Shown here in pieces: positions 20,940 to 33,019 of a DNA stretch of 64,000 nucleotides; positions within the stretch are counted from its first letter, which is position 1, and every line of letters begins with the position of its first letter. A program made the position numbers and the translations under genes. This DNA comes from Desulfatibacillum sp. (GTDB lineage: Bacteria; Desulfobacterota; Desulfobacteria; Desulfobacterales; SpSt-501), in NCBI GenBank assembly GCA_020725555.1, contig DYEU01000018.1, positions 205,113-269,112 of the forward strand, in the 5' to 3' direction. The notes under the pieces are model-generated. The model did no database searches. It was not told where the DNA came from and worked only from the letters and a program-made list of their open reading frames with translations.

Positions 20940-21230
20940 ATGGCCCATCACGAAACGGAGCGACTGGCGTTCTTCTTCCCGCGGGCGCGGGTCTTGAGCG
21001 AAGCCGAGGTCGCCGCCCTGCCCGAAGACAAGCGGCGCGCCGCGGCCCGCGGGGGCACCCCGGGGGTGTGGCTCGAGGTCCACTGCCCCGGCGGGGCCTG
21101 TGTGGGGGCGGACGGCAAGGTCGTCCTCGAGGCCGCGGGCGTCGAGCCCGCCAAGGCCAAGGGCATCTGGCTGAACGTCTTCTGCCCGGAGGAGAGCTGC
21201 CTCTGGAAAAGCGGGGCCGAAACGGTCTAG
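20940..21230 (+). CDS. Conserved hypothetical small protein with paired cysteines (96 aa)
   Basis: I do not recognise a named family. The protein starts MAHHETERLAFFFPRAR and has two Cys pairs, HCPGGACVGADG and FCPEESCLWKSG, in a context of beta strands (GVWLEVHC, KGIWLNVFC). The near-repeat of strand plus Cys-x4-Cys suggests an internal duplication that could bind a metal or form disulfides. GAGGAGG precedes the ATG and a TTGACA promoter lies upstream. It is separated from the convergent regulator gene by a hairpin. Confidence 0.78.
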   Translation: MAHHETERLAFFFPRARVLSEAEVAALPEDKRRAAARGGTPGVWLEVHCPGGACVGADGKVVLEAAGVEPAKAKGIWLNVFCPEESCLWKSGAETV

Positions 21231-21286: not shown

Positions 21287-22690
21287 TCATTTCCGGTAGA
21301 CCTCGGCGCGGATCCCGTAGCGCCGCAGGATCTGCTGCAGCGCCTGGCGCTCCAGCCCGCAGCGGCGCGCGGCCTGCGACACGTTCCCGCCGCTTTCCGC
21401 AAGCAGCCGGCCGAGAAAGTCGCGGTTGAAGCGCTCGAGGGCCTGCTGCTTGGCGCGGCGGTAGTCCCCGGCCGCCTCCGGGGGCGAGGCGGGGCGCTCC
21501 GCTTCGGCGGGCGCTTCCTCGGTTTCCTCCCAGCCCACGTCGGCCGGTCCGATGTCGTCGCCGGCGGCGAAGGAGATCCCGCGCATGATCACGTTTTCGA
21601 GCTCGCGCACGTTGCCGCGCCAGTCGTGCCGCAGAAAGCGGCCCATCAGCTCGGGGGAGATCCGCTTGCGGGGGCGGCCGAGGAGCGTGCAGTGCTTCTG
21701 CAGCAGGTGGTCGGCGATGAGCGGGATGTCCTCGCGGTGCTCGCGGAGGCTCGGCTGCCGGATGGGGAGCACGTTGAGGCGGTAGAAGAAGTCCTCGCGG
21801 AACTCGCCGGCCGCGATCTTCGCCGCGAGGTCCCGGTTCGTGGAGGCGATGATGCGGACGTCGACCACGACCGAGCGCGTCTCCCCGAGCGGCTTGATCT
21901 CCTTTTCCTGGAGCACGCGCAGGAGCTTGGTCTGGATCGAGGGGCTGATGTCGCCGATCTCGTCGAGGAAGATCGTCCCGCCGTGGGCCTCCTGAAAGAG
22001 GCCGGGGCGGTTTTCGGTCGCGTGGGTGAAGGCGCCTTTGCGGTAGCCGAAGAGCTCGCTTTCGAGGATGTTCTCGGGGACGGTGGGGCAGTTCACGGCG
22101 ACGAAGGGGCCGCCGCGGCGCGGGCTGAGCGCATGGAGGGCGCGGGCGGTCAGGTCCTTGCCCGTGCCGGACTCGCCCGTGATCAGGACCGTGAGGTCGG
22201 TCTTGGCCGCCATCTGGATTGTCTCGTAGAGCCGCTGCATCACCGCGCTCTTGCCGACGAGGTCCTGGAAGGCGGCCAGCGGCGAACAGACAAGCTGCAG
22301 CCGCCGGTTCTCCTGGATGAGGCGGCTGCGCTCGAGGGCCTTCTCCAGGCGCACGACGAGGGCCTCGTGCTCGAAGGGCTTGGTGATGAAGTCATAGGCC
22401 CCGCCGCGCATGGCCCGCACGGCGGTGTCGATCTCGCCGAAGGCGGTCATCATCACGACCGTCTGCTCGGGGCTCTCGCGCTTGATGATCTCGAGGAGCT
22501 CCAGCCCGTCCATGCCGGGCATTTTGATGTCGGCGAGCACGAGATCGAAGCGCCCGGCGGAGATCTTGCGCAGGGCCTCCTCGCCCGAGGCCGCCGTCTC
22601 AACCCGGCAGCGGAGCTCGGGCTCGAGAGCCCGCCGCAACAGCTCGAGGAGGTCCCGCTCGTCGTCCACGATGAGGATCGCCCGCTTCAT
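21287..22690 (-). CDS. NtrC-family sigma54-dependent response regulator
   Basis: The product is 467 aa. The receiver domain (1-120) carries the acidic pocket DDE at 9-11 and phospho-acceptor Asp54 (VLADIKMPG). An AAA+ domain (about 140-380) follows with Walker A GESGTGKD, the sigma54-contact loop GAFTHA (usually GAFTGA), Walker [11 protein letters not shown] and the arginine-finger region. The C-terminal Fis-type helix-turn-helix is [20 protein letters not shown]. It activates sigma54 promoters when phosphorylated, presumably by the adjacent kinase, whose stop its ATG overlaps. Two -24/-12 promoters 4 kb away are its best candidate targets. Confidence 0.95.
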
Positions 22691-24207
22691 GTCTCCTCCT
22701 CGGGCGGCGCCCCGGCGGCGGGCAGCACCACGGTGAAGACCGAGCCCTTGCCGGGCCGGCTTTCCACGCGGATCTCGCCGCCGTGGCGGCGCACGATGCC
22801 GTAGCTCACCGAAAGGCCGAGACCGGTCCCCTCGCCGGTCGGCTTGGTCGTGAAGAAGGGATCGAAGATGTGAGGCAGGTCCTTGTCCTCGATCCCGCAG
22901 CCGTCGTCCTCCACGGCGACGGCAAGCTTGCCCTCCTCCTCGAGCCAGCGGGTGACGACCCGGATCGTCCCTTCCCCGCCCACGGCGTGCCGCGCGTTCA
23001 TGAGCAGGTTGAGGAGCACCTGCTTGATCTTCTTTTCGTCCACCACGACCTCGGGGATGCGGCGGTCGAAATCGGACTCCAGACGGATCCGGCCGCCGGC
23101 CGCGTTCTGCCCGAAGAAGTGGAGCACCTCCTCGATCGTGCGGTGGATGTCCACTTTCTCCTGCTTCGGCTCGGAGCGGCGGGCGAACTTGAGGAGGTCC
23201 TCGACGATCGCTTTGCAGTGGCGCACGTGCTTTTCGATCGTCTTCAGGTCCCGGTGGCGCTCGGAGCCGGGGGCCTCGCCGCGCAGGAGAAGCTGCGTGT
23301 AGCCGAGAATGACGCCCAGCGGGTTGTTGATCTCGTGGGCGACGCCGGCGGAGAGCTGGCCGATCGAGGCCAGCCGGTCGGCCTGGGCCATCTGCTCCTG
23401 GAGCCGGCGGCGCTCCTCGATGTCGCGGGCGATCAGGTGGACGGCTGCGCCCTCCCCCCCGCTTTCGCGGTCGCGGACCGCGCTCGCAAGGACGGGGAGC
23501 AGGACGCCGTCGGCGCGCCGGAGCTCGAGCTCGACGTTCTGGACGAAGCCGCGGCGCTCGATCGCCGCACCGATCTCCCGCCAGGCCCCGGGCCGGGCGA
23601 GGAAGCGCACCAGCGGCGCCCCCCGCAGGCGGTCGGCGGCCTCCTCGCCGCCCCCGAGCAGCTTCGCCCCGGCGGGGTTGATCTCGCGGATCGTTCCCTC
23701 CGGGTCGAGGACCAGGATCGGGTCGCGCGCGACCTCGAAGATGCGCCGGTATTGCCGCTCCGAAAAGGCGAGCGCGCGCGCCCTGTCGCCTGCGAGGCGC
23801 TCGAGCTCGCGGTTCACCTCGAGGAGCTCGGCCCGGGCGCGGCGCAGGGCCAGCCGGTCGCGGGCGATCCGCTCGGTGGCTTTCCAGACGCGCTCGAAAA
23901 ACAGGGTGACCGCGGCGAGGGCGACGAACAGCAGGGTGTTGACCGCGCTGCTGTAAGGCCGCAGGGCGGCCCAGAGGTCCTCGCGCCCCGCGAGCAGAAG
24001 CCCCTGGCGGGCGATGTGCCCCGCCGCGCGCGAGAGGGAAAACCCGGCCAGCCCCACGCAGACCCAGAAGAGGTAGATCCGCAGCAGGCTTTCGGGATCC
24101 GCGCGCCTCAGGTGCGTCGCCGTCCCCAGGCAGAGAAACGAGAGGGCGATCATGGCGAGCGAGCCGCCCACGTCCACGGCGAAGAGCGGCCAGAAGGGCA
24201 CGGTCAT
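22687..24207 (-). CDS. Membrane PAS-sensor histidine kinase
   Basis: The product is 506 aa. Three membrane helices span about residues 5-115 (e.g. SLAMIALSFLCLGTATHL). A coiled coil, a PAS domain (IFEVARDPILVLDPEGTI), a HisKA domain with phospho-His in GVAHEINNPLGVILGY, and a HATPase domain (NLLMNARHAV, DDGCGIEDKDLPHIF, GTGLGLSVSYGIV) follow. It autophosphorylates and passes phosphate to the overlapping NtrC-type regulator. The ATG overlaps the stop of the upstream 166-aa membrane protein (ATGA), so sensor membrane protein, kinase and regulator are one operon. Confidence 0.94.
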   Translation of the reverse strand: MTVPFWPLFAVDVGGSLAMIALSFLCLGTATHLRRADPESLLRIYLFWVCVGLAGFSLSRAAGHIARQGLLLAGREDLWAALRPYSSAVNTLLFVALAAVTLFFERVWKATERIARDRLALRRARAELLEVNRELERLAGDRARALAFSERQYRRIFEVARDPILVLDPEGTIREINPAGAKLLGGGEEAADRLRGAPLVRFLARPGAWREIGAAIERRGFVQNVELELRRADGVLLPVLASAVRDRESGGEGAAVHLIARDIEERRRLQEQMAQADRLASIGQLSAGVAHEINNPLGVILGYTQLLLRGEAPGSERHRDLKTIEKHVRHCKAIVEDLLKFARRSEPKQEKVDIHRTIEEVLHFFGQNAAGGRIRLESDFDRRIPEVVVDEKKIKQVLLNLLMNARHAVGGEGTIRVVTRWLEEEGKLAVAVEDDGCGIEDKDLPHIFDPFFTTKPTGEGTGLGLSVSYGIVRRHGGEIRVESRPGKGSVFTVVLPAAGAPPEEET

Positions 24208-24704
24208 GGCTCCTCCTCGCCGGGGAAGGCCGCCTCCGGCCGGCGGCGCAGATCCCGCAACCCCGCGTAGAGAAAGGCCATCGCCGGGACGCAAAGCAGG
24301 TGATCGAGCCGGGCGAGATAGTAGAGCGGGGCGAGGATCTCCCCGAAGGCGCCGGCCTCGATCCGCACCCAGGCCGGTGCGAGGCGGACCGTGGCGACGA
24401 TCCCCCACTGCTCATCCAGCAGGTGGGCGAAGAAGGCGGCCGCGTTCCAGAGAACGAAGAACAGGGCCGCAAGCTGGATCTTCCGCCACCCGGGGTGCCG
24501 CACAAGCCCCCGCTGCCGCAGGCGCAGGACGAGGAGCCCCATCGCGGCGAGAAACAAGAGGTGCGCCCCCTGGTGGAGAACGAGGCTGTCGGTCGGGCCG
24601 TGCTCCTGCAGGGCGTGAAGCGGCGAGGCGGAAAGGAAGAAGAGGAAGGCGGCGAGCGCCGCCGGGGGGGGAGAGACGGTTCTGCCGCGTCGGAGGGGAA
24701 GCAT
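24204..24704 (-). CDS. Integral membrane protein upstream of the histidine kinase (166 aa)
   Basis: The protein has a hydrophobic N-terminal segment that may be a signal anchor (ALAAFLFFLSASPLHA), then about three to four membrane helices (HLLFLAAMGLLVL, ALFFVLWNAAAFFAHLL, APLYYLARLDHLLCVPAMAF). Several His residues lie within or near helices. I cannot name a family. Tight coupling to the kinase (ATGA) suggests a signalling input or accessory role. Function is inferred from position only. Confidence 0.75.
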   Translation of the reverse strand: MLPLRRGRTVSPPPAALAAFLFFLSASPLHALQEHGPTDSLVLHQGAHLLFLAAMGLLVLRLRQRGLVRHPGWRKIQLAALFFVLWNAAAFFAHLLDEQWGIVATVRLAPAWVRIEAGAFGEILAPLYYLARLDHLLCVPAMAFLYAGLRDLRRRPEAAFPGEEEP

Positions 24705-24755
24705 GCTGCGTTCTCTCAGGCGGCGGGCCCGGTTGCCTTGCGCCCGCGGAAGCCC

Positions 24756-25277
24756 TCAGCCCGGTGCGGAGAGGCGGGCGGCCCGCAGCCGCGCGATCAG
24801 CCGGGGGGCGAACCGCCGCAACCGCCCGGTGACCAGCCGCGCCAGGAGATAGGCGACCAGAAACACGAGAACGTAGTTCACCCCCTCCGGCCAGCCGGGA
24901 ACGGGCACGCCGCGGGGGGAAAAACGGAATTGCAGCCAGTCCAGGGCGAAGAAACAGGGCCAGAGCGCGGCTGCGGAGAGCCCGAACTTGTTGAAAAAGA
25001 CGTGGCCGAAGGCGCTGTTCGCCTGGCGGTTCAGGGCCTTGTAGCTTGCGGCGTCGCCGCGGGAGGCCGCTTCCCGCGAGAGCTCGTGGTATTTCCGCAG
25101 CTCGGCCTCCAGGCGGGCGAGATGGCTGCGGTTGACCCGGGCGACGACCCGCAGCGTGCCCTCACCGACGAACACGGCGAGCAGCGCCAGCAGGACGGTG
25201 CCGAGCGCGCCGTTTGCCGGCGCCGAGGCCGTCAGGGCAAACATGGGGGCAAGCCACGGATCCAGCACATGCGCCAT
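24756..25277 (-). CDS. Membrane protein with Oxa1/DUF106-like layout (173 aa)
   Basis: The protein has an N-terminal membrane helix (LGTVLLALLAVFVGEG), a charged cytoplasmic helical segment (ARLEAELRKYHELSREAASR, then GDAASYKALNRQANSAFG), a pair of central hydrophobic segments (GLSAAALWPCFFALDWLQF) and a C-terminal helix (NYVLVFLVAYLLARLV). The order helix / charged hairpin / helices resembles small YidC-Oxa1-EMC3 (DUF106) proteins, but I see no diagnostic residue, so this is only a resemblance. It lies between the permease and kinase genes on the same strand, after a strong hairpin. Confidence 0.65.
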   Translation of the reverse strand: MAHVLDPWLAPMFALTASAPANGALGTVLLALLAVFVGEGTLRVVARVNRSHLARLEAELRKYHELSREAASRGDAASYKALNRQANSAFGHVFFNKFGLSAAALWPCFFALDWLQFRFSPRGVPVPGWPEGVNYVLVFLVAYLLARLVTGRLRRFAPRLIARLRAARLSAPG

Positions 25278-25338
25278 GGCGGCGCTCCTTCCGCCGCGCC
25301 TTCCCCCCGCCGCGGCCGTTGGGGTGCGGGGAGGGGAA

Positions 25339-25368
25339 GCCCGGGCCGGCTTGGCCGCCGGCCCGGGC
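25339..25368 (-). terminator. Strong hairpin after the TauE/SafE permease gene
   Basis: A perfect 12-bp inverted repeat (GCCCGGGCCGGC / GCCGGCCCGGGC) with a 6-nt loop lies 33 bases past the permease stop. It has no T-run. It probably reduces read-through from the sigma54 operon into the sensor genes. Confidence 0.6.
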
Positions 25369-25401
25369 GTGGCCGTGTTCGGCTCCGTACCGCGGGTGCG
25401 A

Positions 25402-26631
25402 TCACATCGGCACCCAGGCCCTCCCGAAGAAGCCCTTGCTCAGGTAGCCGATCCCCACGTAGAGGGCGAGCACGATGAAGATGAGCTTCAACCACTTGTC
25501 GGGGATGTACTTGGCGGTCCGCGGGCCGATCATGGAGCCGATGAAGATCCCGATCAACTGGATGCCGACGAGCGTCCAGTCCATCCCGGCGCCGGCCACC
25601 TGGATGTAGGTCGTGATGCCCGTGATCATGCTGAGCAGCACGGCGAGCGCCGAGGTGCCGGCAACGACGAACATGGGCAGCCCCACGATGCTCGTGAGGT
25701 AGGGGACGTAGAGGAAGCCCCCGCCCACCCCGATGAAGGCCGAGATGGCGGCGATGACCACCCCGCCGAAAAAGGCGGCGATGGGGTTGAAGGTGAAGTC
25801 GGTCCCGAAGAAGGCCATGGTGGACTTGGTGAGCCCGAAGGATTTCAGGGTGACGCCCGCGGCGGCGATGTCCTTTTTCTCGCGCACGGTCTTCTCGAAG
25901 GCCTGGGCCGCGGCCTTGGCGGCCTTCTTGCTCTCCTGGCCCTTGGGCGTGAGCTCGTAGATGAGGACGAAGCCCACGACCAGGACGAAGACCCCGAACC
26001 AGCCCTGGTACTGGCTGAAACTCACGCGTCCGCCGCTGATCGAGGCCGAGAGATAGGCGCCGACGATCGAGCCGATGCCGAGGGCGAGCCCGAGCGGCCA
26101 GGACATGCGCCGGGACTTGAAGTAGTTGATGACGCTGAGAATGGCCGAGAGCCCGACCAGGAACTGGTTCGAGGTGCGGATGCTGTCGGTCAGCGTCTTG
26201 TTCAGGCCGGGTGCGGTTTCGCGGAAGGTGCGCACCCAGTCGCCCAGCCCGTAGACGGTCATGTGCCCGACCCCGGCCATGATGCCGCCGAAGGCGCCGA
26301 CGGTCGAAAAGATCCAGCCCACCCAGGTGGCCCAGACGAGCGCGAGAATCCAATTGACCTGCGGTGCTCCGGGCACGCCGAAGGCCCCGCGCGGGGCCGT
26401 GGGGTCGATCTGCCCCTTGCCCTTGCCCTCCGGGGCCTTGGCGATCTCCTGGCCGAGCTTGGCGGGAAGCCCGAGATCGCTGCCCACGGTCTTGGGCTTG
26501 GGCGCCTCGGCCGCCGGCTGGCCCTGGGCGGCGGGCTGCTGGGCCCAAAGGGCGCCGGCGCCCAACACGAAGAACGCCGCCGCCAGCGCGAACACGGCGA
26601 TCCCTTTTGCCAAAAATCCTTTCCTCTTCAT
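25402..26631 (-). CDS. TauE/SafE-family sulfite/sulfonate-type permease, enlarged form
   Basis: The product is 409 aa, longer than the usual ~250. It begins with a signal-like hydrophobic segment (GIAVFALAAAFFVLGAGALWAQ), an extracytoplasmic Pro/Ala/Gln linker (about residues 32-85), then about 8 membrane helices in two homologous halves. The halves are separated by a charged loop rich in Lys/Ala (KGQESKKAAKAAAQAFEKTV). The second half contains the typical FIGVGGGFLYVPYL motif. Family members export or import sulfite, sulfoacetate or related anions. AGGAGG precedes the ATG, and a near-consensus sigma54 promoter lies 69-84 bp upstream. Confidence 0.88.
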   Translation of the reverse strand: MKRKGFLAKGIAVFALAAAFFVLGAGALWAQQPAAQGQPAAEAPKPKTVGSDLGLPAKLGQEIAKAPEGKGKGQIDPTAPRGAFGVPGAPQVNWILALVWATWVGWIFSTVGAFGGIMAGVGHMTVYGLGDWVRTFRETAPGLNKTLTDSIRTSNQFLVGLSAILSVINYFKSRRMSWPLGLALGIGSIVGAYLSASISGGRVSFSQYQGWFGVFVLVVGFVLIYELTPKGQESKKAAKAAAQAFEKTVREKKDIAAAGVTLKSFGLTKSTMAFFGTDFTFNPIAAFFGGVVIAAISAFIGVGGGFLYVPYLTSIVGLPMFVVAGTSALAVLLSMITGITTYIQVAGAGMDWTLVGIQLIGIFIGSMIGPRTAKYIPDKWLKLIFIVLALYVGIGYLSKGFFGRAWVPM

Positions 26632-26699
26632 CCTTCCTCCTTTCCCGATGCACCGGCCGGCGGCCGGGTATTGGATGACGGCAAACCCCCGCCTCGCAA

Positions 26700-26715
26700 A
26701 GCAAGCCGCATGCCA
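26700..26715 (-). promoter_or_regulatory. Sigma54 (-24/-12) promoter for the TauE/SafE permease
   Basis: The minus strand reads TGGCATGCGGCTTGCT, close to the consensus TGGCACG-N4-TTGCW. The invariant GG and GC are exactly 10 bp apart. The predicted start is ~12 bp downstream, about 60 bp before the ATG at 26631. Confidence 0.72.
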
Positions 26716-26802
26716 TGCGGGGCGGACCCCCGGCACCCCCGGGCGGCCGGCGGCGGATGGGGAACGCCGCCGGGGAGAAAGGATGGCTGTAAGGGCAATA
26801 AC

Positions 26803-26824
26803 CAATCGAAATTCATGGTGATTG
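26803..26824. promoter_or_regulatory. Candidate activator-binding dyad (CAATC-N12-GATTG)
   Basis: CAATC and GATTG are inverted and 12 bp apart, 88-109 bp upstream of the minus-strand -24 element, a normal position for an enhancer of a sigma54 promoter. The arms are short, so the support is positional. Confidence 0.35.
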
Positions 26825-26931
26825 TTTCAAGATCGCCGCGGTCGGCGAACCCTCCCCGGGCGCTGGTGCGCGGCTTCTGGGGAGCCTCCGCGGGGAATGC
26901 CGCCGTCGCCTCGGCCTTCGGTATCGCAAAA

Positions 26932-26958
26932 AAAATTATGCACTGCAACAATAATTTT
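26932..26958. promoter_or_regulatory. AT-rich perfect dyad, candidate sigma54 enhancer
   Basis: AAAATTAT and ATAATTTT form a perfect 8-bp inverted repeat around an 11-bp centre (GCACTGCAACA). Flanking CGC and GCG bases extend the symmetry if the longer A-run is looped. It lies about 135-160 bp upstream of the plus-strand -24 element, suited to an NtrC-type activator. Confidence 0.45.
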
Positions 26959-27090
26959 GCGTTTAACCCTCCCCCGGCCATGGCGCCGGAAACGGCGGGG
27001 GAAACGAACTCACGCCCCAACCCTTCGGAACGAATTGAGTTTCTCCTCCCCGAAGGCGGCTGCGGCCGTTTCGGGGTGCTGCGCAGCGCC

Positions 27091-27106
27091 TGGTATGCTT
27101 ATTGCT
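27091..27106 (+). promoter_or_regulatory. Sigma54 (-24/-12) promoter for the molybdopterin oxidoreductase operon
   Basis: TGGTATGCTTATTGCT matches the pattern TGGCACG-N4-TTGCW with GG and GC exactly 10 bp apart and a C before the TGG. The ATG is at 27176, 70 bp downstream, after a GGGGGAGG ribosome site. Confidence 0.68.
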
Positions 27107-27175
27107 GCCTTCCCGGGGTTCGAATGCCGCGAAGATTCAGACCACACCTTACTCGTAGGGGGAGGTTTTCGGCCG

Positions 27176-29260
27176 ATGGAAAAAACCGTTTACAGCCTGT
27201 GCTTCATGTGCTCGGTGCGCTGCCCGATCCAGGTCACGGTCAAGGACGGGCAGGTGACCTTCATCCAGGGCAACCCCAAGGTCCCCGGCATCGAGGGCAG
27301 CCTCTGCCCGCGCGGCGCGGCGGGGATCGCGCTCCTCTACGACGCCCAGCGGCTGCAGTCGCCGATGATCCGCACCGGCGAGCGCGGCTCGGGCTCCTGG
27401 CGCAAGGCGAGCTGGGATGAGGCCCTCGACTACATCGCCGAGAAGCTCCGGGCGATCCTCAAGAAGCACGGCGGCCAAAGCGTCGCCCTGATCGAGCGCG
27501 CCAACCTCGCCACCCACGTGAGCAAGGCCTTTCTCAAGGCGATCGGCTCCCCCAACTATTTTTCCCACGACGCCCTCTGCAAGGGCTCGGTCAACACCGC
27601 CTGCCGCTCGCTCTTCGGCTACACCGACGCCCAGATGGGGATCGACTACAAGAACACGCGCCACATCGTGCTCTACGGCCGCAACCTCTTCGAGGCGATC
27701 GCCGTCAAGGAGGTGAACCAGATGATCGAGGCCCTGGGGGCGGGGGCCAAGATGACCTGCATCGACCCGCGCGTCTCGATCACCGCGACCAAGGCCCATC
27801 GCTACTGGATGATCCGGCCGGGGACCGACCTCGCCCTCAACTACGCCCTCATCCACGTGATCCTCAAGGAGCGGCTCTACGACGCGGCCTACGTCGAGCG
27901 CTGGGTGCTCGGGTTGAACGAGCTGCAGGATTTCGTCCAGCCCTACACGCCGGAGTGGGCCGAACAGGAGACCGGGATCCCCGCCGCCGAGATCGTGACG
28001 CTCGCCCGCGAGGTGAGCCGGGAGAAGCCCGCGGTGATCTTCCACTACGGCTACCGCGGGGCGCACCACACAAACGAGATCTACCTGCGCCGCTCGATCC
28101 TGATCCTGAACGTCCTCATGGGCAGCGTCGAGGCCAAGGGCGGCCTGTTCTTCAAAAAGGGCCCGGGCGAGGTCGGCCGCAAGCCGGCGCGCAAGCTGAC
28201 CGACCAGAAGTTCCCCGCGGTCAAGGCGCCGCGCATCGACAAGGTCGGCACCCCGGACTTCCCGCTGCCCGACCCGGAGCACGGCGTGCCGCAGGTGCTG
28301 CCGCAGGCCATCCTGAGCGAGGACCCTTACCCCCTCAAGGCCCTCTTCGCCTTCCGCATGGACCCGCTCATGTCCATGCCGGACACGAACCTCACCAAGA
28401 AGGCGCTCCAAAAGCTCGATCTCGTGGTCGCCTGCGACATCAACTGGAGCGACATCGCCTGGTGGTCCGACGTCGTGCTGCCCGAGTCGGTCTTCCTCGA
28501 GAGAACCGACTGCGTCCAGCAGGCCAACGGGCAGAAGCCCCAGATGTTCCTGCGCCGCCGCGCCGTGCCCCCGCGCTACGACACGCGCGACTGGGCGGTG
28601 ATCGTCAAGCAGCTCGCCGAGCGCATCGGCGCGGGCGATTTCTTCCCCTACCAGGACACCGAGGAGCTCGTCCGCTGGCAGCTCGAGGGAACCGGCTTCA
28701 CCCTCGAGGATTTCGACAAGACGGGCTTCGTCGCCTACACCGACAAGCAGATCCTCTGGGACCGCCTGGGGGGGCTCAAGCTCAAGACCCCCTCGCAGAA
28801 GATCGAGTTCACGTCCTCGCTCCTCGAAAACGCGGGCTTCCCCTCGTTTCCGCCCTACGAGCCGGTGCCGGCCTACGAGGGCAACCGCTTCCGGCTGATC
28901 ACCGGCCGGGCGGCCCTGCACACCCACGTCTCCACCCAGAACAACCCTTACCTGCACGAGCTCCTGCCCGAAAACGAGCTGTGGATCCATGCCCGGCGCG
29001 CCGCCGCCCTCGGGGTGAAAGACGGGGCCCTCGTCACCGTCGCCTCCCGGGTCGGCTCGGGCCAGATCCGCGCCCGGGTGACCGAGCACATCCACCCCGA
29101 CTGCGTCTTTCTCCTCCACGGCTTCGGCCACGAGGCGGCCTTCGCCGCGCGCGCCTGCGGCCGCGGGGTTTCGGATGCGCTGCTCGAGGAGAACCTCACC
29201 GACCGCGTCGGCGGGAGTCCCGCCCTGCACGACACGACCGTGACCGTCCAGCCGGTTTGA
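27176..29260 (+). CDS. Cytoplasmic molybdopterin oxidoreductase (PhsA/PsrA-like catalytic subunit)
   Basis: The product is 694 aa, a member of the DMSO-reductase superfamily. A [4Fe-4S] motif Cys9-x2-Cys12-x3-Cys16-x27-Cys44 opens the protein, followed by the Mo/W-bis-MGD domains. Cys135 in SHDALCKGSVNTAC is the likely metal ligand. A C-terminal cofactor-binding domain (ITGRAALHTHVSTQNNPYLH) closes it. There is no twin-arginine signal and no in-frame Sec codon, so it is a soluble cytoplasmic, cysteine-type enzyme. Closest resemblance is to thiosulfate/polysulfide reductase A chains, but the true substrate is unknown. It heads a five-gene operon under a sigma54 promoter. Confidence 0.9.
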   Translation: MEKTVYSLCFMCSVRCPIQVTVKDGQVTFIQGNPKVPGIEGSLCPRGAAGIALLYDAQRLQSPMIRTGERGSGSWRKASWDEALDYIAEKLRAILKKHGGQSVALIERANLATHVSKAFLKAIGSPNYFSHDALCKGSVNTACRSLFGYTDAQMGIDYKNTRHIVLYGRNLFEAIAVKEVNQMIEALGAGAKMTCIDPRVSITATKAHRYWMIRPGTDLALNYALIHVILKERLYDAAYVERWVLGLNELQDFVQPYTPEWAEQETGIPAAEIVTLAREVSREKPAVIFHYGYRGAHHTNEIYLRRSILILNVLMGSVEAKGGLFFKKGPGEVGRKPARKLTDQKFPAVKAPRIDKVGTPDFPLPDPEHGVPQVLPQAILSEDPYPLKALFAFRMDPLMSMPDTNLTKKALQKLDLVVACDINWSDIAWWSDVVLPESVFLERTDCVQQANGQKPQMFLRRRAVPPRYDTRDWAVIVKQLAERIGAGDFFPYQDTEELVRWQLEGTGFTLEDFDKTGFVAYTDKQILWDRLGGLKLKTPSQKIEFTSSLLENAGFPSFPPYEPVPAYEGNRFRLITGRAALHTHVSTQNNPYLHELLPENELWIHARRAAALGVKDGALVTVASRVGSGQIRARVTEHIHPDCVFLLHGFGHEAAFAARACGRGVSDALLEENLTDRVGGSPALHDTTVTVQPV

Positions 29261-29287
29261 GGCGAACGCCAAGGAGGGAAACCGCCC

Positions 29288-29803
29288 ATGAGCCAGTATT
29301 ACCTCTTCCAGGACACCAAGAACTGCATCGGCTGCCACTCCTGCGAGATCGTCTGCAAGAGCAACAAGGGCCTGCCGATCGGCCCCAAGCCCTGCCAGGT
29401 GATCCACGTCGCCCCCCGCCTGGTGAACGGCCAGCCGCGCGCCTCCTACGTCTTCATGCCCTGCTTCCACTGCCAGAACCCCTGGTGCGTCGCCGCCTGC
29501 CCGACCGGGGCGATGCGCAAGCGGCCCCAAGACGGGATCGTCTACGTCGAGCCCGAGCTCTGCGTGGGCTGCAAGACCTGCATCACCGCCTGCCCCTGGG
29601 GCGCCCCGCAGTGGAACCCCGAGACCGGCAAGGCGGTGAAATGCGACTACTGCAAGGACCGGCTCGACGCCGGGCTCAAGCCCGCCTGCGTGACCGTGTG
29701 CACGACGCATTGCCTGCACTTCGGCCGTGTCGAGGAGATGACCCGCATCCGCCGCGAGCGCCACGCGCGCACGATCGCCAGCCTGGAGAACCAGATCGGA
29801 TGA
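29288..29803 (+). CDS. Four-cluster 4Fe-4S ferredoxin subunit (PsrB/DmsB-like)
   Basis: The product is 171 aa. Four cysteine groups are visible: CIGCHSCEIVC, CFHCQNPWCVAACP, CVGCKTCITACP and CDYCKDRLDAGLKPACVTVC, enough for four [4Fe-4S] clusters. This is the electron-transfer beta subunit of complex iron-sulfur molybdoenzymes and would carry electrons between the catalytic subunit at 27176 and the flavoprotein at 29835. No membrane-anchor gene (PsrC/DmsC type) follows, which fits a soluble complex. GGAGGG precedes the ATG. Confidence 0.93.
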   Translation: MSQYYLFQDTKNCIGCHSCEIVCKSNKGLPIGPKPCQVIHVAPRLVNGQPRASYVFMPCFHCQNPWCVAACPTGAMRKRPQDGIVYVEPELCVGCKTCITACPWGAPQWNPETGKAVKCDYCKDRLDAGLKPACVTVCTTHCLHFGRVEEMTRIRRERHARTIASLENQIG

Positions 29804-29834
29804 GCCCCCGCGGCCGTCCGCCGGAGCCGAGCCG

Positions 29835-31994
29835 ATGAGCGCGCCCGCCCCCTGCCCGGTCCACGAGACGATCCTGCGCGTGCGCGGGGAGATCGAGTCC
29901 GGAAGGCTGGCCCACCCCCGCAGCCGCCGGATCGCCGAGGAGATCCTCGATCTGCTGAACGACGTCGCCTGGGGCCGCGCGGGCCAGGACCATCCGGGGG
30001 CGATCGCCTCGCTCGCCGACGAGCTCGCCGCGGACACGGAGCACCCGGCCGCACCCGGCCTCGCCCGGTTCCTGCTCGACGCCCTGAGCCGGCAGCGGGA
30101 GGTCTTCCAGAGCCACATCGAGACCCACAACTGCGCGAGCGGGGACTGCGTGCGCCTCGTCCCCGCCCCCTGCCAGATGGCCTGCCCCGCGGGGATCGAT
30201 GTCCCCACCTACGTGAACCTGATCGCCCTCGGCCGGGACGCCGAGGCGATCGAGGTCATCCGCCGCGACAACCCCTTTCCCTGGGTCTGCGGCCTCGTCT
30301 GCACCCGGCCCTGCGAATTCATGTGCGTGCGCGGCCGCCTGGACAAGCCGATCTCGATCAAGTTCCTCAAGGCCTTCGCCGCCGAGCGCGCCCTCTCCGA
30401 GCGCAGCTACCGCAACCCGCCGCGCGAGGCGGACAAGGGCCGGCGCGTCGCGGTGATCGGGGCCGGCCCGGGGGGCCTGACCGCGGCCTACTACCTCGCC
30501 CTCAAGGGCTACGGGGTCACGGTCTTCGAGGAGCTCCCCATGGCGGGCGGCATGATGATGATCGGCATCCCCCGCTACCGCCTGCCGCGCGAGGTGATCG
30601 ACCGCGAGGTGGCCATGCTCGAGGACCTGGGCGTCCGCTTCCGCTTCGGCACGCGCTTCGGCCGCGACGTCGATCTCGAAACCCTCAAATCCCGTGGCTA
30701 CGACGCGGTCTTCCTCGCCATCGGCGCCCACGCCTCCTTCAAGCTGAACATCCCCGGCGAGGCCGACTTCCCCCAGGTGATCGAGGCGATCGCGCTGTTG
30801 CGCCGGGTGGCGCTCGGCGACCACCGCGCCCCGGGCAAACGGGTCGTGGTCGTGGGCGGGGGCAACGTCGCCATCGACGCCGCGCGCACCTGCCTGCGCC
30901 TGGGCTGCGAGGAGGTGACGATCGCCTACCGCCGCAGCCGGGCGGACATGCCGGCCGACGTGGAGGAGGTGGAGCAGGCCGAGGAGGAGGGGGTGCGCTT
31001 CTCCTTCCTCACCATCCCCAAGGCCGTGCACGGGGCCGCGAGCGCCGTGCGCGGGCTGGAGTGCGTGCGGGCGAAGATGGTCAAAAAGGACGACGGCCCG
31101 CGGCTCTTCCCCGTCCCGGTCGAGGGCAGCGAGTTCACGATCGAGGCCGACACGGTCGTCTCGGCCATCGGGCAGCGCATCGAGCTCGAGTGCCTGCGCG
31201 ATCTGCAGGGCCTCTCCTGGAGCCGGCGGCAGACGATCCAGGCGAGCGCCGTGACCCAGGAGACCTCGCTCCCCGGCGTCTTCGCCGGCGGGGACGCCGT
31301 CACCGGCCCGGCGACCGTGGTCGAGGCGATCGGCGCCGGAAAACGCGCGGCCGAGGCGATCGACCGCTGGCTCTCGGGGATCCCGCAGCCGACGATGCCG
31401 CCCGTCCCCGTGCGCCGCCGCCGCGTCGACTGGATCGAGGTCCCGGCCAGCACGAAGATGACGCTTAGGCGGCCGGAGATGCCGCTGCTCAACCTCGAGC
31501 GGCGCCGCACGACCTTCCAGCAGGTCGAGCTCGGCTACCCCGAAAACGCCGTGCGCGAGGAGGCCCGGCGCTGCCTGCGCTGCGACGTCTGCCTGCGCTG
31601 CGGCCAGTGCGTCGCGGTCTGCCGCGACCGCATGGGGATCGACGCCCTGCAGTTCGGCTTTCTCTCCTTCGACCGGCCCGGGCCGACCGATCTGCGGGTC
31701 ACGGCCGAGCGCTGCATCCTCTGCGGGGCCTGCGCGGCGAACTGCCCCAACGACGCCATCCGCGTCGTTGACCGCGGCGGCGAGCGCCTGCTATCCTGGT
31801 GCGGAACGATCCTGAACCGCGAGCGGCTCGAGCGCTGCGAGGGGTGCGGGGCCGTGCTCGGCCCGCGGCGCTACCTCGAGTACCTCCAGAAACGCACCGC
31901 GCCGGTCGGCCCGCTCCTGACCGGGAGGCTCCTCTGCCAGGCGTGCGCCCGCCGCGAAAGCGCGCGCATGCACACGGACATCGCCCCCGTGTAG
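29835..31994 (+). CDS. FAD-dependent NAD(P)H oxidoreductase (GltD-like) with extra Fe-S domains
   Basis: The product is 719 aa. After a helical N-terminus come the GltD/DPYD-type Fe-S helical domain (CQMACPAGIDVPTYV, then CGLVCTRPCEFMCVRG, ~115-175), an FAD site (GAGPGGLTAAYYLALKGYG, ~206), an NAD(P) site (VVVGGGNVAIDAARTCLRLG, ~337) and a second FAD motif (VFAGGDAVTGPATVVEAIGA). Two ferredoxin-like motifs (CLRCDVCLRCGQC and CILCGACAANCP) and a terminal Cys-pair module (Cys668/671 and Cys701/704) follow. It probably exchanges electrons between NAD(P)H and the ferredoxin subunit. Overall it is considerably longer than GltD (~470 aa). Confidence 0.9.
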   Translation: MSAPAPCPVHETILRVRGEIESGRLAHPRSRRIAEEILDLLNDVAWGRAGQDHPGAIASLADELAADTEHPAAPGLARFLLDALSRQREVFQSHIETHNCASGDCVRLVPAPCQMACPAGIDVPTYVNLIALGRDAEAIEVIRRDNPFPWVCGLVCTRPCEFMCVRGRLDKPISIKFLKAFAAERALSERSYRNPPREADKGRRVAVIGAGPGGLTAAYYLALKGYGVTVFEELPMAGGMMMIGIPRYRLPREVIDREVAMLEDLGVRFRFGTRFGRDVDLETLKSRGYDAVFLAIGAHASFKLNIPGEADFPQVIEAIALLRRVALGDHRAPGKRVVVVGGGNVAIDAARTCLRLGCEEVTIAYRRSRADMPADVEEVEQAEEEGVRFSFLTIPKAVHGAASAVRGLECVRAKMVKKDDGPRLFPVPVEGSEFTIEADTVVSAIGQRIELECLRDLQGLSWSRRQTIQASAVTQETSLPGVFAGGDAVTGPATVVEAIGAGKRAAEAIDRWLSGIPQPTMPPVPVRRRRVDWIEVPASTKMTLRRPEMPLLNLERRRTTFQQVELGYPENAVREEARRCLRCDVCLRCGQCVAVCRDRMGIDALQFGFLSFDRPGPTDLRVTAERCILCGACAANCPNDAIRVVDRGGERLLSWCGTILNRERLERCEGCGAVLGPRRYLEYLQKRTAPVGPLLTGRLLCQACARRESARMHTDIAPV

Positions 31995-32033
31995 CCTCGG
32001 GGAAGGGGCGGGGGCGGGGAAAGGAGGCCCGGC

Positions 32034-32246
32034 ATGGCCTTTCACAAGGGACAGAAGGTGGAAATCTACCGGCGCTCCGCAGACGAGAGCTGGGGGCCGC
32101 ACATGGACGAGTACATCGGCCGCCACGGCGTGATCACCGACCCGGACACGACGAAAAACGACCCCGACGCCCTGATCGAGGTCTCGATCGACGGCAAGGG
32201 GACCCATCGCTTTCCCCAGGACTGCCTGCGGCTGATCGACGCATGA
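32034..32246 (+). CDS. Small SH3/KOW-like protein in the oxidoreductase operon (70 aa)
   Basis: The protein is 70 aa: MAFHKGQKVEIYRRSADESW opens it, then YIGRHGVITDPDTT, ALIEVSIDGKGTHRFPQDCL. The alternation of short strands with KGQKVEIY, GRHGVI and a closing RFPQDCLRLID is what a small SH3-like or KOW-like beta barrel looks like. I do not recognise a named family. It overlaps the next gene by ATGA, so it is stoichiometrically linked to the Fe-S subunit and may be an assembly, regulatory or docking factor. Confidence 0.78.
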   Translation: MAFHKGQKVEIYRRSADESWGPHMDEYIGRHGVITDPDTTKNDPDALIEVSIDGKGTHRFPQDCLRLIDA

Positions 32247-33019
32247 CCGGCGAAGGATCGATCCCCGTCCGCGTGAACGACCGGGTCCTCGATCTCCCCG
32301 AGGGCCGATCCCTCCTCGAAGGGCTGCTCGAGGCCGGCGTGCCGATCCCCCACCTCTGCCACCACCCCGCCCTGAAGAAGGCCACGGGGGTGTGTCGGCT
32401 GTGCACGGTCGAGGTGAGCGTGGGGGACGGCGGCCCGCAGACCCGGCGCGCCTGCCTGCTCAAGCCGCTGCCCGGCATGGCGGTCCGGACCGAGAGCGCG
32501 GCCGTCCAGGCCGCGCGCGAGAAGGCCATGCGCGCGCTTTTGCGCCAGGCCCCGCAGGCCGAGCGGCTGCTCCAGATCGCCGCGCAGTTCGCCATCCGCG
32601 TCGACCCCGCCCCCGACGGCTGCATCCGCTGTCTCCTCTGCGAGCGCATCTGCCGCGAGGTGGTGGGCGCGGCGGCCCTGCGGCTGGGAAAGCGCGGGGG
32701 GGTCCGCCTGATCGAGCCGGTCGAAGGCCGCTGCATCGGCTGCGGCACCTGCGCCAACGTCTGCCCGACCCGCGTGATCCACGTGCACGACGAGGAGGCC
32801 GTGCGCGTGATCTCGATCCGCGGCGAGACGATCGGCCGCCACCCGCTCGCCGTCTGCGAGGGCTGCGGCAAGCGCTTTGCGACCCCGAAGTTCCTGGATG
32901 CGGCCCACCACCGGGCGGTCGACCACCACCCCGACGTGAAAGAACACCACCGCTTCTGCCCGGAGTGCGCCAAGCGCCTCTCCGGCCGCGTCTCCGCCCT
33001 GACCACCCGCCGCTATTGA
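32243..33019 (+). CDS. NuoG/HydA-N-like 2Fe-2S and 4Fe-4S electron-transfer subunit
   Basis: The product is 258 aa. An N-terminal [2Fe-2S] domain (HLCHHPALKKATGVCRLCTV, with a later Cys in RRACLLKP) precedes a histidine-poor linker and two [4Fe-4S] motifs (CIRCLLCERICRE from residue 127 and CIGCGTCANVCP from 164). A C-terminal Cys-pair module (Cys205/208 and Cys239/242) ends it. This is the layout of the N-terminal part of NuoG and bidirectional-hydrogenase diaphorase subunits, which pass electrons from NADH or ferredoxin. It completes the soluble oxidoreductase operon. Its end overlaps the convergent carbamoyltransferase gene by 7 bases. Confidence 0.9.
   Translation: MTGEGSIPVRVNDRVLDLPEGRSLLEGLLEAGVPIPHLCHHPALKKATGVCRLCTVEVSVGDGGPQTRRACLLKPLPGMAVRTESAAVQAAREKAMRALLRQAPQAERLLQIAAQFAIRVDPAPDGCIRCLLCERICREVVGAAALRLGKRGGVRLIEPVEGRCIGCGTCANVCPTRVIHVHDEEAVRVISIRGETIGRHPLAVCEGCGKRFATPKFLDAAHHRAVDHHPDVKEHHRFCPECAKRLSGRVSALTTRRY

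Follow-up and report, generated by a model that had tools for sequence, protein, structure and literature searches.

The 64,000-nucleotide stretch analysed here, hereafter the window, comes from the Desulfatibacillum sp. assembly GCA_020725555.1 (contig DYEU01000018.1, positions 205,113 to 269,112). Its subject is a control region of about 0.4 kb that separates the gene for a TauE/SafE (TSUP) permease from the gene for a PhsA/PsrA-like molybdopterin oxidoreductase. Two -24/-12 (sigma54) boxes face outward from this region, 391 bp apart. The box of the permease operon, TGGCATGCGGCTTGCT, is located on the minus strand at 26700-26715, matches TGGCAYGN4TTGCW exactly and is conserved in relatives. 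The box of the molybdoenzyme operon, TGGTATGCTTATTGCT, is located on the plus strand at 27091-27106 and carries T for C in the consensus. Both had been placed at these positions and strands by the initial annotation, with GG and GC 10 bases apart and 70-85 bp to the start codons. All of this was reproduced, the near edges being 69 and 70 bp and the far edges 84 and 85 bp from the likely starts (ATG 26631 for the permease, ATG 27176 for the molybdoenzyme). A Shine-Dalgarno-like sequence was seen by eye before each start.

Five genes follow each box. On the minus strand, the permease (25402-26631, 409 amino acids) was assigned to Pfam PF01925 with 96.3 bits at a cut-off of 32.6. It is accompanied by mem173 (24756-25277), a 173-amino-acid protein without family and of membrane type by eye. 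Next is mem166 (24204-24704), a His-rich, membrane-type protein of 166 amino acids without family, which accompanies the kinase and is a possible sensor partner. The histidine kinase (22687-24207) comprises PAS, HisKA and HATPase domains (PF00512/PF02518) and a hydrophobic N-terminus judged by eye. It overlaps the gene for an NtrC-family response regulator (21287-22690) with a receiver (PF00072), an AAA+ domain (PF00158), a Fis-type helix-turn-helix (PF02954) and the sigma54-contact loop GAFTHA. The kinase and activator proposed near the boxes are both real by domain content. On the plus strand, the molybdoenzyme (27176-29260, 694 amino acids) is followed by a PhsB/DmsB-like 4Fe-4S protein (29288-29803), a GltD-like NAD(P)H/FAD oxidoreductase with an extra 4Fe-4S domain (29835-31994), p70 (32034-32246), a conserved protein of 70 amino acids without family, and a NuoG-N/HoxU-like 2Fe-2S plus 4Fe-4S protein (32243-33019). 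The iron-sulfur proteins and the oxidoreductase were assigned by family profiles. In 29 distinct loci p70 occurs, strongly conserved, next to the GltD-like gene. The intergenic gaps are short or overlapping, the longest being the 124 bp after the permease, so two operons are likely.

Loose matching was uninformative about the boxes, because the sigma54 pattern with up to two mismatches had 37 matches in the window against 42 expected from shuffles. This lack of excess speaks for the view that a GC-rich region has produced the two boxes by chance. Strict matches were enriched in the genome as a whole (3.59 Mb): TGGCAYGN4TTGCW occurred exactly 12 times, against two for the reversed pattern. With TGGYAYGN4TTGCW, 13 exact sites were found, and the outward-facing pair of the window accounts for two of them. 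With up to one mismatch, the excess of the latter pattern was smaller (81 against 54 in the control). For nine of the 11 other exact TGGCAYGN4TTGCW sites, an ATG frame that has 5 or 6 of the 6 Shine-Dalgarno letters begins 40-197 bp downstream, in an uncontrolled count. By eye, other exact boxes of this genome (L040-L050) precede genes for pilins, a Wzz-like chain-length protein, a CoA transferase and an HdrC-like iron-sulfur protein. RpoN was represented by one PF04552 match with 211.6 bits.

For comparison with relatives, the best 80 of 216 by a molybdoenzyme scan were combined with 10 same-genus stretches and two duplicates were removed, giving 88 loci. A box was defined by at least 10 of the 12 sigma54 consensus letters with GG and GC fixed, and the reversed pattern served as control. 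Most named relatives carrying the molybdoenzyme are Desulfobacterota. Cultured carriers of a locus with both boxes are Desulfosarcina widdelii PP31, D. alkanivorans PL12 and Desulfatibacillum alkenivorans DSM 16219. After exclusion of L056, in which phsA is cut by the contig start, 48 relatives with phsA of at least 60% identity were testable. Of these 48, 33 carry a box in the 300 bp upstream of phsA, and none the reversed control. Conservation of both boxes beside the same two operons had been named beforehand as a test, and it holds in many relatives. The boxes are therefore not chance matches; that explanation is refuted by their conservation at matching places and retains practically no probability.

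The phsA box was present in 23 of 25 of these relatives with a regulator (at least 50% identity) or mem166 in the compared DNA. The two exceptions are L075 and L078, in which permease and phsA run in one direction. In L075, gltD is preceded by a box, and a box is also located inside the permease gene or near its start; L078 has one before the permease. On a phsA tree made by a quick method, the box label changed six times, compared with 26.9 times for shuffled labels. In the 700 bp upstream of phsA across all loci, 64 boxes were counted against two in the control, and 1.48 Mb of loci contained 77 strong boxes against nine. L062 has the same DNA as L054, and L068 the same as L052; both copies remain in the totals of 64 and 77, so the boxes of L052 count twice. 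The two boxes are 374-407 bp apart in 18 of 24 paired loci, window included. This spacing count includes L072 and L135 (684 and 532 bp), which are outside the hand-picked alignment of 21 paired-box loci. The plus-strand box starts with TGGTA, not TGGCA, in 21 of the 22 aligned regions.

On the permease side, 23 of 24 loci have a TSUP gene after the outward box: it follows directly in 13, and in 10 a single small gene of roughly 133-161 codons stands between. Open reading frames of the second kind of locus were checked only in L082, and none was found in L108. Two distant TSUP types, about 30% identical, occupy the same promoter position. The second type (L071, L074, L082 and others) mostly has a small membrane-type gene before it; in L082, L089 and L094 it comprises 565-587 amino acids with a long N-terminal part. 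Where the gene order is rearranged, the permease is still found with a box (L072, L078, L095, L104 and L135). In L100 a box coincides with the extrapolated permease start, and in L111 one precedes this start by about 0.55 kb.

A candidate activator site was sought between the boxes by counting, in 21 control regions, every inverted dyad of four letters with a gap of 0-20; L138, which is close to L067, was excluded from dyad and site counts. The top dyad, GCAA-N8-TTGC, was present in 15 of the 21 regions against 0.38 in dinucleotide shuffles, and the best count reached by any dyad in 100 shuffles was 7. The extended form TGCAA-N8-TTGCA gave 27 matches with 9 or 10 of 10 letters in 17 of the 21 regions, compared with 0.3 by mononucleotide shuffling. 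The centre of the best sites is 94% A/T. In the window, candidate site 1, CGCAAAAAAAATTATGCA, is located at 26925-26942 with 8 of 10 letters. Candidate site 2, TGCAACAATAATTTTGCG, at 26944-26961 with 9 of 10, lies 19 bp from site 1, and the plus-strand box follows 129 bp later. Seven of the 21 regions have two copies at a distance of 19 bp, with at least 8 letters each, about 115-150 bp before the phsA box. A further copy with at least 8 letters was located about 125-155 bp from the permease box in eight regions. TGCAA-N8-TTGCA is likely a shared activator site between the two boxes. The NtrC binding site is TGCACC-N5-GGTGCA. Both have TGCA-type palindromic half sites, and the motif of the window differs by its N8 spacing and A/T-rich centre.

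A natural deletion is seen within the genus. A regulator ortholog (at least 79% identity) and mem166 were found in three of seven same-genus genomes (G000, G005 and G006), all with both boxes; the next-best regulators in same-genus genomes reached at most 48% identity. G001 and G003 lack the kinase, the regulator, mem166, the two boxes and the site all at once. There, by eye, phsA directly follows a gene matched to one that ends in the window at 21230, just past the regulator, and the permease and mem173 are relocated without box or site. Genome completeness is 98% for G001, 87% for G003, 85% for G002, in which the phsA start lies outside the compared DNA, and 80% for G004. G004 showed no close phsA and a permease fragment without box in the preceding 2.8 kb. 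Regulator, mem166, boxes and site are co-present or co-absent in all five same-genus genomes with phsA upstream DNA, with a site of 8/10 letters only in G006. In L054, L055, L150 and L151, which have no kinase, regulator or control region, the enzyme gene and a relocated permease are kept; the operon is complete in L054, and L055 is cut.

A different NtrC-type activator of the same genome could act on the boxes in place of the neighbouring regulator. The genome offers many candidates, the regulator query having 92 matches in it at E ≤ 0.001. Of 23 testable relatives whose compared DNA contained neither regulator nor mem166, 10 still have the phsA box, many of these loci being short. The joint presence and loss in the five same-genus genomes and the box in 23 of the 25 relatives with regulator or mem166 stand against it, and only a slim chance is given to such an activator.

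The contact loop GAFTHA is shared by the regulator of the window and 18 of 27 orthologs of at least 53% identity (17 of 26 without the duplicate L068), and GAFTGA was found in one. In several Desulfobacula/Desulfotignum-type loci the loop is GAFTNA, GAFTSA or GAFTDA, and the phsA boxes end in ATGGC, ATAGC or ATCGC. In L065 and L066, both with GAFTDA, the phsA box has TTGC. In six Desulfobacula/Desulfotignum-type genomes (G007-G012; L084, L085, L088, L095, L075 and L120), boxes with a non-T base before GC numbered 27 against 5 in the control, and boxes with T 57 against 1. Four other genomes had 23 non-T boxes against 39 in the control and 46 T boxes against 9. Covariation of the GAFT-x-A loop with the base before GC is not claimed, the non-T excess being genome-wide in the six genomes. 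Non-T boxes look like a lineage trait rather than a demonstrated feature of this regulon.

The protein mem166 has invariant histidines at positions 35, 44, 48, 94 and 135 in 25 sequences, and 29 of 30 mem166 loci contain a kinase match. Its predicted fold (mean predicted local distance difference test score 84) is uninformative about function, because it matched none of the solved structures at E ≤ 0.001. That mem166 is a sensor partner of the kinase is a guess from its constant place beside it.

The best family for the molybdoenzyme was PhsA (NCBIfam, 625.5 bits at a cut-off of 694). The closest solved structure was 2vpw, from Thermus thermophilus, which covers residues 3-684. Cys135 aligns with the molybdenum-ligand cysteine of 2vpw, and this position is Cys in 78 of 81 rows. 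A related large subunit, the ligand cysteine and a PhsB/DmsB-like partner are shared with the thiosulfate/polysulfide reductases PhsABC/PsrABC (2vpw). The enzyme of the window differs from these by the lack of a signal for twin-arginine translocation (Tat) and of a PhsC/NrfD anchor, by partners of NAD(P)H type and by its score below the PhsA cut-off. PhsA proper was ruled out on the score, the signal and the anchor. A Tat-like RRxFL motif was absent from the first 45 residues of the window enzyme, as from 78 of 81 rows overall, and the Fe4S4 domain begins at residue 2. No PhsC/NrfD membrane anchor was found among the five operon genes. The molybdoenzyme looks soluble because it has no Tat-like motif and its operon no anchor gene. 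Formate dehydrogenases have Cys or Sec followed by His at the active site. Formate dehydrogenase alpha was rejected, with an FdhA score of 262 bits at a cut-off of 666 and Lys after Cys135. Genes nuoE and nuoF directly follow phsB in eight window-clade loci (by Pfam for L082) and the GltD-like protein is common; these partner genes suggest NAD(P)H as the electron source.

Sequence comparison establishes the boxes, the site, the gene set and their joint presence or absence. A two-component sigma54 switch over both operons is the reading that we favour, with a probability of about 85%. The kinase, perhaps with mem166, would sense a signal and phosphorylate the NtrC-type regulator. The regulator would then bind the tandem TGCAA-N8-TTGCA sites midway along the region, and RNA polymerase with RpoN would be opened at both outward boxes. 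The TSUP operon, probably including the kinase and regulator genes themselves, and the phsAB-gltD-p70-nuoG-N operon would be switched on together. The initial annotation had taken the 21-33 kb block as one regulon that moves a compound and processes it with a soluble molybdoenzyme. The conserved boxes, the accompanying kinase and activator, the candidate shared site and the apparently soluble enzyme give the regulon part of this reading good comparative support, and the limits of the block are better set at 21287-33019.

Several observations weigh against the switch or its extension to function. No phsA box was present in 15 of the 48 relatives of at least 60% identity, including the same-genus G001 and G003, so phsA does not need the box. 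In the distant group with phsA below 60%, only 5 of 38 loci had a box, with one in the control. Only 13 of 35 window-clade loci showed a permease box, an undercount as the search missed the second TSUP type. The copy of the site on the permease side, seen in eight other regions, was not found in the window. No clear second target of the regulator emerged in its own genome, where the site motif with up to one mismatch occurred 18 times and the control 10 times. The conserved loop reads GAFTHA instead of GAFTGA, and the molybdoenzyme falls below the PhsA cut-off. GAFTHA is counted among loop variants that would keep activity in the part of PMC4641369 available to us.

On the biochemical side, the permease may transport a sulfur-containing anion, most likely into the cell. 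Its reduction by the soluble PhsA-like enzyme may then take place in the cytoplasm, with NAD(P)H electrons delivered via the GltD-like and NuoG-N-like subunits. This import and reduction is a tentative proposal, at somewhat less than even odds. Instead, the permease could export sulfite or another anion for relief while the enzyme runs a different or an oxidative reaction, the two being joined by a common signal only. For TSUP proteins of sulfate reducers, the available text of PMC5840216 calls the function unpredictable, which leaves room for export. Two TSUP types as distant as about 30% identity at the same promoter beside the same enzyme fit a shared task and leave the direction unfixed. 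Export is considered unlikely, at an appreciable probability. For import and reduction, the best guess for the substrate is a sulfur oxyanion such as thiosulfate. The most detailed version, a Desulfobacterota system of TSUP uptake of thiosulfate (or polythionate or polysulfide) with NAD(P)H-linked soluble PhsA-type reduction and a kinase using mem166 as sensor partner, is decidedly improbable in all its parts together.

This type of control is already known, since sigma54 operons with TSUP transporters and divergent sigma54 operons are described for Desulfovibrio vulgaris. As far as the accessible text of PMC4641369 goes, nine sigma54 operons with TSUP or PSE transporters are reported there, as are sigma54 operons that diverge from a shared region containing a motif. 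The operon DVU0132-DVU0133 (response regulators DVU0110/DVUA0057) likewise combines a TSUP permease, a sigma54 promoter, a two-component activator and a conserved upstream motif in a sulfate reducer. It differs in that the same portion of PMC4641369 names neither a molybdoenzyme partner nor a divergent pair for it. The type III secretion operons under DVUA0100 are alike in having two divergent sigma54 operons with a predicted motif between them, and differ in their genes and single-component regulator (PMC4641369, same portion). A published flavoprotein system follows the same idea of thiosulfate import and NAD(P)H reduction in the cytoplasm. Its transporter belongs to a different family, and the word 'molybdopterin' is absent from the text at hand. 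No description of the TSUP/PhsA-like pair or of the regulon was recognised in the literature searched, with most subscription journals and supplements outside the search. The regulon, its motif and the pairing of these genes seem to add new members to a known type.

The host is probably a dissimilatory sulfate reducer because dsrA is present (623 bits at a cut-off of 393). TSUP permeases are abundant in sulfate reducers, and the consulted sections of PMC5840216 and PMC4641369 give their substrates as unknown. The control region, for which a candidate activator motif is now given, ties one such permease to a soluble PhsA-like enzyme and a two-component system, which leads to a narrow and testable guess at the substrate. 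Same-genus genomes without the control region offer a natural comparison of unswitched with switched expression. Thiosulfate uptake is known from physiology (Cypionka 1987, as cited in the sections consulted of PMC5840216 and PMC3949148). If thiosulfate is the substrate, the regulon would supply genes for this physiologically known uptake.
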